Source: Roseinatronobacter sp. S2 (GTDB taxonomy: Bacteria > Pseudomonadota > Alphaproteobacteria > Rhodobacterales > Rhodobacteraceae). From it: a stretch of 64,000 nucleotides of DNA. This document shows, one piece after another, positions 29,623-29,825 of this stretch (its first letter is position 1; each line of letters begins with the position of its first letter). The position numbers were made by a program, and so were the translations under genes. The stretch covers positions 2,042,001-2,106,000 of the forward strand of contig NZ_CP121113.1 in assembly GCF_029581395.1 (NCBI RefSeq), given 5' to 3'. The notes beneath the pieces were generated by a model that had not been told where the DNA came from, did no database searches, and was given only the letters and a program-made list of their open reading frames with translations.

Positions 29623-29668
29623 CTGTATAGTCCTGTAACCGGAGATCTGTTGTATCTGATGTGTTTTC

Positions 29669-29719
29669 CGGGCGCTTGCAACCTCTGAGCGGCGCGCCCG
29701 TTCAGGACACGCTCAGAGG
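29669..29719 (-). promoter_or_regulatory. leuA leader: mutually exclusive hairpins of a putative attenuator
   Basis: Two stems read on the minus strand compete. Stem A pairs 29710-29719 with 29682-29691 (10 perfect pairs, CCTCTGAGCG with CGCTCAGAGG). Stem B pairs 29694-29700 with 29669-29675 (CGGGCGC with GCGCCCG). Each arm of B lies in or across the loop of A, so both cannot form. Stem A starts inside the leader ORF's last codons. No T-run follows either stem, so the termination step may need Rho. Confidence 0.7.
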
Positions 29720-29790
29720 CCCCTAAGAAGAAGCAGGCCCGTTTGCAGGGGCAATGTCGGCAGTGCCGCGATATGCTCGTTCAATGACAT
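29713..29790 (-). CDS. leuL: Leucine-rich leader peptide of leuA
   Basis: 25 residues beginning MSLNEHIAAL and ending TGLLLLRGL, with nine leucines including four consecutive Leu codons (CTG CTT CTT CTT) near the end. It lies 90 bases before leuA on the same strand. The stop codon is inside stem A. Such peptides let a ribosome stalled for leucyl-tRNA control transcription of the biosynthetic gene. The ATG is at the base expected for the transcription start, so it may be translated leaderless, as trpL is in Sinorhizobium. Confidence 0.8.
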   Translation of the reverse strand: MSLNEHIAALPTLPLQTGLLLLRGL

Positions 29791-29796
29791 CGTCGT

Positions 29797-29825
29797 GTTA
29801 TACGCAGGATATATCCGGTTGAAAA
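29797..29825 (-). promoter_or_regulatory. Putative sigma-70-type promoter of the leuA leader
   Basis: On the minus strand TTTTCA (29820-29825) and TATAAC (29797-29802) are separated by 17 bases. The A of the leader ATG is the seventh base after the -10 element, the usual start site. Confidence 0.6.

Follow-up and report, generated by a model that had tools for sequence, protein, structure and literature searches.

A conserved leucine-codon leader upstream of leuA in Rhodobacteraceae: a probable translational attenuator

The window analyzed here, a 64,000-nucleotide stretch of DNA from Roseinatronobacter sp. S2, carries on its minus strand a leuA gene whose product is a 2-isopropylmalate synthase (NF002087, 835.2 bits vs. 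a cut-off of 729). The gap upstream of this gene, flanked by a divergent signal peptidase I gene (TIGR02227), holds a short leucine-rich open reading frame (ORF), raising the question of whether leuA is under the control of an attenuator and, if so, of which kind. A preliminary description had proposed one, and its account of the parts is borne out (Table 1): the ORF has 25 codons with nine Leu, four of them in a row, and ends 90 nt before the leuA ATG (29622), while its last codons and UGA stop lie in a perfect 10-bp stem (stem A), with which a second stem (stem B) is interleaved. The remark that no T-run follows the stems was likewise correct for the window, and no run of more than four T was seen in 105 loci.

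Table 1. Features of the leuA leader region in the window
Feature	Positions	Strand	Basis
leuA, 521 aa	28057–29622	−	profile match NF002087
-35-like TTTTCA, 17 nt ahead of the -10 box	29820–29825	−	sequence and relatives
-10 box TATAAC, six bases ahead of the leader ATG	29797–29802	−	sequence and relatives
Leader ORF, 25 codons, MSLNEHIAALPTLPLQTGLLLLRGL; ATG as putative transcription start	29713–29790	−	sequence, conserved frame
Four-Leu run, CTG CTT CTT CTT	29725–29736	−	Leu conserved, codons varied
Stem A 5′ strand, includes the leader stop UGA (29715–29713)	29710–29719	−	pairing, covariation
Stem A 3′ strand	29682–29691	−	pairing, covariation
Loop segment GTCCTG, complement of the leuA SD; proposed anti-SD of the window's genus	29703–29708	−	own-genome pairing, folds
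Stem B 5′ strand, within the stem A loop	29694–29700	−	pairing, relatives
Stem B 3′ strand	29669–29675	−	pairing, relatives
leuA Shine-Dalgarno (SD) region CAGGAC	29630–29635	−	sequence

The window by itself says little on this question. Taken as a whole, its leader has a fold no stronger than those of shuffled versions (z −0.70; 41 of 200 shuffles do as well), a sigma-70 scan of the leader region returned no promoter, no intrinsic terminator was found there, and an Rfam 15 search of the element gave no match at either the gathering cut-off or E ≤ 10. With fold, scan, and Rfam all null, the case for the window element rests on comparison.

A covariance model (R1), built on 109 loci (alignment A1), matched 287 of 295 sampled Rhodobacteraceae genomes (E ≤ 0.001), with a single match in 286 of these and two in the remaining one (G225). 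Among sampled Alphaproteobacteria, 55 of 385 genomes had a match (E ≤ 0.01), five of them Rhodobacteraceae, and among sampled Pseudomonadota 30 of 249, of which 29 belong to Alphaproteobacteria; the lone match outside the class (G907) sits within a 580-codon open frame and was not kept. Extra matches inside long ORFs (G897 and G828) were discarded, as was one (G016) in a stretch without a 100-aa ORF and, by eye, without a Leu run. The element lies upstream of leuA in 78 of the best 80 named leuA loci, some of the single-sequence matches among these 78 being weak and accepted on the motif; of the other two, L061 has no leader and L071 comes from a contig that begins inside leuA. Three leuA loci from other families (L128, L131, and L132) gave no leader match. 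In the class outside Rhodobacteraceae, leuA is downstream in all 24 placed loci (25 were fetched; L159 was unplaced). Among named relatives, a Roseinatronobacter sp. MAG stands closest to the window, with a LeuA 91% identical.

Several variants were noted. In loci from outside Rhodobacteraceae, a Leu-Arg-Leu ending, mostly CTTCGACTTA, often takes the place of the four Leu (L147, L151–L155, L158, L161, L162, and L165–L169). Bradyrhizobium-type members have longer leaders and a longer GC-rich loop (L070, L072–L079, L081, L171, and L185); in the ten such loci inspected, no -10 box was found at a fixed distance from the ATG, and these leaders are apparently not leaderless. In L032, L036, L064, L084, L090, and L093 we noted by eye an inserted inverted repeat of the CCCGAAG...CTTCGGG type, an extra hairpin ahead of a GCTAAG segment between stem B and leuA. 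One family of the class (f174) has seven listed genomes without a match in the phylum search; in this family the element may have been lost or have diverged too far.

The starting collection of 123 loci omits the window copies (L001/L082) and L061, which has no leader; L071, L126, L128, L129, and L131–L141, without a leader match, also lie outside it, and several of these contain a different gene or have one end within leuA. Alignment A1 further omits 11 Bradyrhizobium-type loci, L026, L010 (weak), and L021 (a near-copy of L015), leaving 109. The 112 loci compared below comprise 95 "main" loci and 17 of the window's genus ("g1"), a split made by eye, with L002 assigned to g1 by hand and the start of L117 also set by hand. 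Main loci in which leuA is too far away or stem A is incomplete were left out of individual tests, so that 87 entered the leader scan, 88 the SD-access folds, 79 the forcing of stem A, and 93 the helix fit.

The leader peptide is well conserved in these loci. Leu occupies the successive run positions in 97, 108, 107, and 112 of the 112 loci, and the codons used there are CTT (198), CTG (100), CTC (71), CTA (51), TTG (3), and TTA (1). The preliminary description had said that leader codons drifting while leuA was kept would count against it, and that conserved Leu codons and paired stems in relatives would count for it; the Leu codons, the frame, and both helices are conserved. An ATG located 12–14 nt past a -10-like hexamer is in the leader frame in 104 cases vs. 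one out of it (112 loci), and in 43 vs. two in 50 further loci, and the best -10-like hexamer begins 13 or 14 nt ahead of the leader ATG in 70 of the 106 loci having one, i.e., at a largely fixed distance. Among 94 main loci, T is found at -35 in 79% and at -34 in 76%. An SD-like 4-mer precedes only seven of 121 leader ATGs (picked by the -10 box) vs. 66 of 122 leuA ATGs. Given this frame bias behind the hexamer and the scarcity of SD-like 4-mers, the leader ORF looks leaderless and translated, and the start proposed earlier, directly behind TATAAC, gains support from the relatives. A His-Ile pair was also noted near leader residues 6–7, including in the window (29773–29768); it is found at residues 6–7 in 46 of the 102 leaders whose start is supported and in 25 of 42 in the further set, and at control residues 11–17 in neither set.

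The two helices are visible across the alignment. In 108 distinct rows, 98.9% of stem A cells are paired, with both-side changes in three of ten pairs, and 80.5% of stem B cells, with both-side changes in two of six pairs, the MAFFT register of stem B being imperfect because its linker varies in length. None of 500 shuffles reaches the observed whole-structure covariation score or the observed number of both-side-changed cells, but the count of both-side-changed pairs (five) falls within the shuffle range (60/500). When one strand is slid by −1, 38 cells are changed on both sides vs. 35, though only 35.6% of cells remain paired vs. 92.0%. Strands also fit their own genome's partner: z −10.6 for the 5′ with the 3′ strand of stem A, and z −7.3 for the stem A loop with the downstream B strand (each 0/5000, n = 93 main loci). 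Within g1, stem A is invariant, and stem B shows no significant own-genome fit (z −1.8, 177/5000). Strands in the order A5-B5-A3-B3 imply either a switch or an H-type pseudoknot. Among loci the stem A loop differs in both length and sequence, and the A3–B3 linker is never shorter than 5 nt (112 loci), which is what a pseudoknot over a 10-bp stem needs, though no proof of one. The preliminary description had the two stems compete; their interleaving stands, but competition alone does not, as the loop lengths would also allow both stems to coexist in such a pseudoknot.

By eye, a stretch close to the leuA SD (GCUAAGGA) is the reverse complement of the last Leu codons together with the next codon (UCCUUAGC). 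For each Leu segment we computed the duplex energy with the downstream region of the same genome and with those of other genomes, using permutations that treat loci as independent of kinship, and obtained −12.83 kcal/mol for own pairs vs. −9.98 for others (z −11.6, 0/2000, n = 95 main loci). Scanned in 31 windows (n = 87 main loci), the leader gives its strongest signal at the last Leu codons (z −11.0 and −10.8), declining both ways over −33 to −9 and reaching at most −2.7 (at +3) beyond. The exact reverse complement of a locus's own 6-mer is present in 39 of 95 main loci vs. 1.5 expected, and that of two control 6-mers in two and none of the 95. These matches comprise six different words of 19 (28 + 4 + 4 + 1 + 1 + 1 loci), which suggests that the two strands have changed in concert on more than one occasion.

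The same pairing was seen beyond the main set. In the 50 further loci, taken from 60 chosen among the best-scoring R1 family rows, and thus not random and possibly close kin of earlier loci (ten were dropped, four identical to earlier loci in the 115-nt core and six of the cupin-first type described below), the Leu segment gave z −4.6 (0/5000), with controls at z −1.4 (upstream; 432/5000) and z −0.4 (loop). Of these loci, 27 have the exact own word, for which the expectation is poorly defined because 46 of the 50 share one word. Class loci outside Rhodobacteraceae (L147–L171, without the unplaced L159 and L158, a near-copy of L152, and with the start of L170 mis-set) gave z −2.28 (60/5000, n = 23; controls z +0.48 and −0.92), i.e., weaker own-genome pairing than within the family, and Bradyrhizobium-type loci only z −1.1 (n = 11). 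In leuA-first loci of the family, the partner of the Leu segment ends (3′) 0–38 nt ahead of the leuA ATG and extends into GGA in 14 of 37 loci; where the SD core is uncovered, the segment may block the landing of the ribosome and not the SD itself.

At least 11 Rhodobacteraceae loci have a small gene between leader and leuA (L025, L026, L052, L142, L146, L193, L203, L205, L207, L221, and L228). It encodes a Cupin_2 protein (PF07883) in L025, the one tested, and the others are alike by sequence. In ten of these 11 cupin-first loci the Leu segment makes at least eight pairs with an AGG-containing stretch before the cupin start, the mean duplex energy of own pairs being −13.23 kcal/mol vs. −12.01 for all pairs (a comparison without permutation and with the start of L205 mis-set). 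As the pairing shifts to the cupin start region, the lock formed by the Leu segment seems to follow the first gene. The pairing suggests that the Leu codons serve as an anti-SD, i.e., translational attenuation.

Access to the SD was predicted with nested folds, which ignore pseudoknots, for 88 of the 95 main loci. A ribosome placed on the Leu codons raises predicted SD access in 42 of these and lowers it in nine, and in the class set (L170 again with its start mis-set) raises it in 15 of 24 loci and lowers it in two. A ribosome on the leader stop opens the SD nearly equally (0.58 vs. 0.61 on the Leu codons in the main set, 0.45 vs. 0.46 in the class set), so that the off state would require the ribosome to leave. 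For g1, a ribosome on the Leu codons raises SD access in none of 17 loci and lowers it in two; in the window itself, predicted access is 0.84 in the free leader and 0.56, 0.82, 0.19, and 0.38 with the ribosome at the four Leu codons. Two features of the window folds were noted in passing. The minimum-energy fold pairs the Leu codons with the stem B 3′ strand, which by eye is not general, and the free fold of the whole leader pairs 29789–29783 with 29624–29618, leaving the leuA AUG at 0.05 unpaired.

The Leu segment of g1 does not fit the leuA SD (z +1.9), and with no gain in SD access either, the simple model of Leu codons pairing with the SD was rejected for the window. In g1 it is the nine bases behind the stem A 5′ strand that fit the SD (z −2.9, 3/2000, n = 17); the g1 scan peaks at +3 (z −4.9, n = 17), and with a wider SD region the peak is at +6 and only z −3.8; one unrelated position, at −60, reaches −3.2. 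The window's GTCCTG is the perfect complement of CAGGAC. A loop anti-SD was rejected for the rest of Rhodobacteraceae (z −0.6 in the main set, z −0.4 in the 50 further loci). Nested folds of the window give two exclusive states, one with stem A and the SD 0.84 unpaired, the other with stem B plus loop:SD pairing and the SD 0.01 unpaired; the whole-leader fold gives 0.53 (stem A state) vs. 0.04 (closed state). Forcing rather than blocking stem A opens the SD in ten of 17 g1 loci and closes it in none, compared with nine opened and six closed of 79 main loci. A leader ribosome is accordingly predicted by these folds to alter SD access in the window's genus only through stem A. Since the leader stop lies inside stem A, a ribosome completing the leader should favor the closed state, in a model where the full footprint at the stop also covers the loop anti-SD and where stem A reaches only 0.34 in the starved state. 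The 17 g1 loci are few, related, and in part near-identical (L112–L114, L123/L125, L124/L127, and L083/L121), and a rewiring of the genus is therefore a lead, not a result.

In our reading, at a probability of roughly 70%, the element is a ribosome-mediated translational attenuator for leuA, in which a ribosome short of leucine probably uncovers the leuA landing site by way of the leader and the RNA fold. From the sequence comparison we infer transcription from the leader A, control by leucine, and translation as the output. Transcription would start with the first base of the leader ATG, which would let a ribosome begin without an SD. When leucine is ample, the ribosome would finish the leader and depart, and the Leu-codon segment would then pair at the leuA SD or immediately before it; the A/B pseudoknot, placed between the Leu segment and the SD region, would hold this pairing, and leuA would be poorly translated. 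When leucine is short, the ribosome would stall on the Leu codons and mask the anti-SD strand, leaving the SD free for LeuA synthesis. For the window's genus, the partner of the SD would be the stem A loop just behind the leader stop: with stem A formed the SD would be open, and with stem A blocked, stem B and the loop:SD pairing would close it, a ribosome at UGA favoring the closed fold and one stalled earlier on Leu the open fold. A more specific proposal is tentative, and we put it at somewhat under even odds. Here the Leu codons would be sensor and anti-SD lock in the same bases, because CUU/CUC runs resemble the 16S rRNA 3′ end; the device would be old in Alphaproteobacteria and match the LEU element of actinobacteria, and the window's genus would have moved the lock to the loop behind the stop, making a two-hairpin switch.

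The preliminary description had left the off-switch as either Rho-dependent or translation-based. A switch without a terminator stands, and of the two outputs translation appears the likelier, with the leuA SD region as the partner. Rho would load on the untranslated stretch after the leader stop and end transcription before or in leuA, unless a stalled ribosome or the fold prevented it. The lack of an intrinsic terminator among our findings agrees with this, as does a stem A–leuA stretch richer in C than in G (median ratio 1.30; >1.2 in 68 of 105 loci). That stretch is, however, short (59 nt in the window), and Rho needs no own-genome pairing with the leuA SD or the cupin start region, yet such pairing is present; we regard Rho attenuation as unlikely. 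Less probable again is a folded leader that binds a protein or small molecule, the Leu codons mattering for their pairing alone. A base stem together with a conserved pseudoknot does look riboswitch-like, and passages of an account of the actinobacterial LEU element (PMC1262725) report Leu-codon mutations in Streptomyces to be without effect, for which reason a protein ligand was thought likely there. A ligand reading nevertheless sits poorly with Leu kept through changing synonymous codons, with the retained frame and promoter spacing, and with a loop that varies in length and sequence.

The suggestion that a released leader acts as a small RNA has fared worst. Classical attenuation yielding a trans-acting leader RNA, as for the Sinorhizobium trp leader, has in its favor the leaderless leader peptide, also described for S. 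meliloti trpL in passages of PMC10117765. No terminator was found here, however, and no T-run longer than four lies between stem A and leuA in the 105 family loci, which makes it very improbable. In the class set, a run of five T occurs in one of 24 loci and a run of six T in one.

The translational attenuator that we favor can be set beside several known systems. The enterobacterial leuL attenuator (Rfam family Leu_leader, RF00512) likewise has a leader peptide with Leu codons ahead of leuA; it differs from the present element, for which no terminator hairpin with a T-run and no Rfam match were found. Leaderless polycysteine attenuators, which Canestrari and co-workers are said to have described in mycobacteria in 2020, differ in amino acid, genes, and phylum. 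The S. meliloti trpL attenuator, as given in part of PMC10117765, is likewise alphaproteobacterial, with a leaderless leader containing codons of the regulated amino acid; it yields the small RNA rnTrpL, whereas the leuA leader here lacks a T-run. The candidate uORFC-8-2 before cysS is also a uORF-based attenuator of Rhodobacterales but concerns another gene, and leuA has no occurrence in the main text of that source (PMC8632094).

The closest likeness is to the LEU element itself, which passages of Seliverstov et al. 2005 (PMC1262725) place before leuA, with a Leu-run ORF, a pseudoknot, and a base stem between Leu codons and SD. Excerpts of two further sources give the S. lividans leader as MRFGLLLLSCRGEGL, leaderless and without a terminator (PMC8079986), and another actinobacterial leader as MTSRANLLLLRRGGSQRS (PMC8709942). 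As far as these passages describe it, the family-wide design matches that of the LEU element: a Leu-run leader ORF stands before leuA, two helices are interleaved (here as pairing potential and own-genome fit in the main set), and the Leu-codon complementarity to the SD region that a base stem calls for recurs in Rhodobacteraceae, where the SD core is partly covered, but not in the window's genus. The hosts are of another phylum, and the likeness is one of architecture. By eye, the 260 nt upstream of a plasmid-borne gene of Streptomyces clavuligerus (L187, 26.5% identical over part of its length) contain no Leu run, which is no test of homology. Among the literature matches listed, mostly outside subscription journals, no such leuA element was described for Alphaproteobacteria.

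If our reading is true, leucine synthesis in a widespread bacterial family would have a control step without an Rfam 15 match. The unexplained LEU element of actinobacteria would be revived with comparative evidence and other hosts in which to test it, and the window's genus would be a naturally occurring example of an RNA switch whose wiring may have changed inside a single genus.
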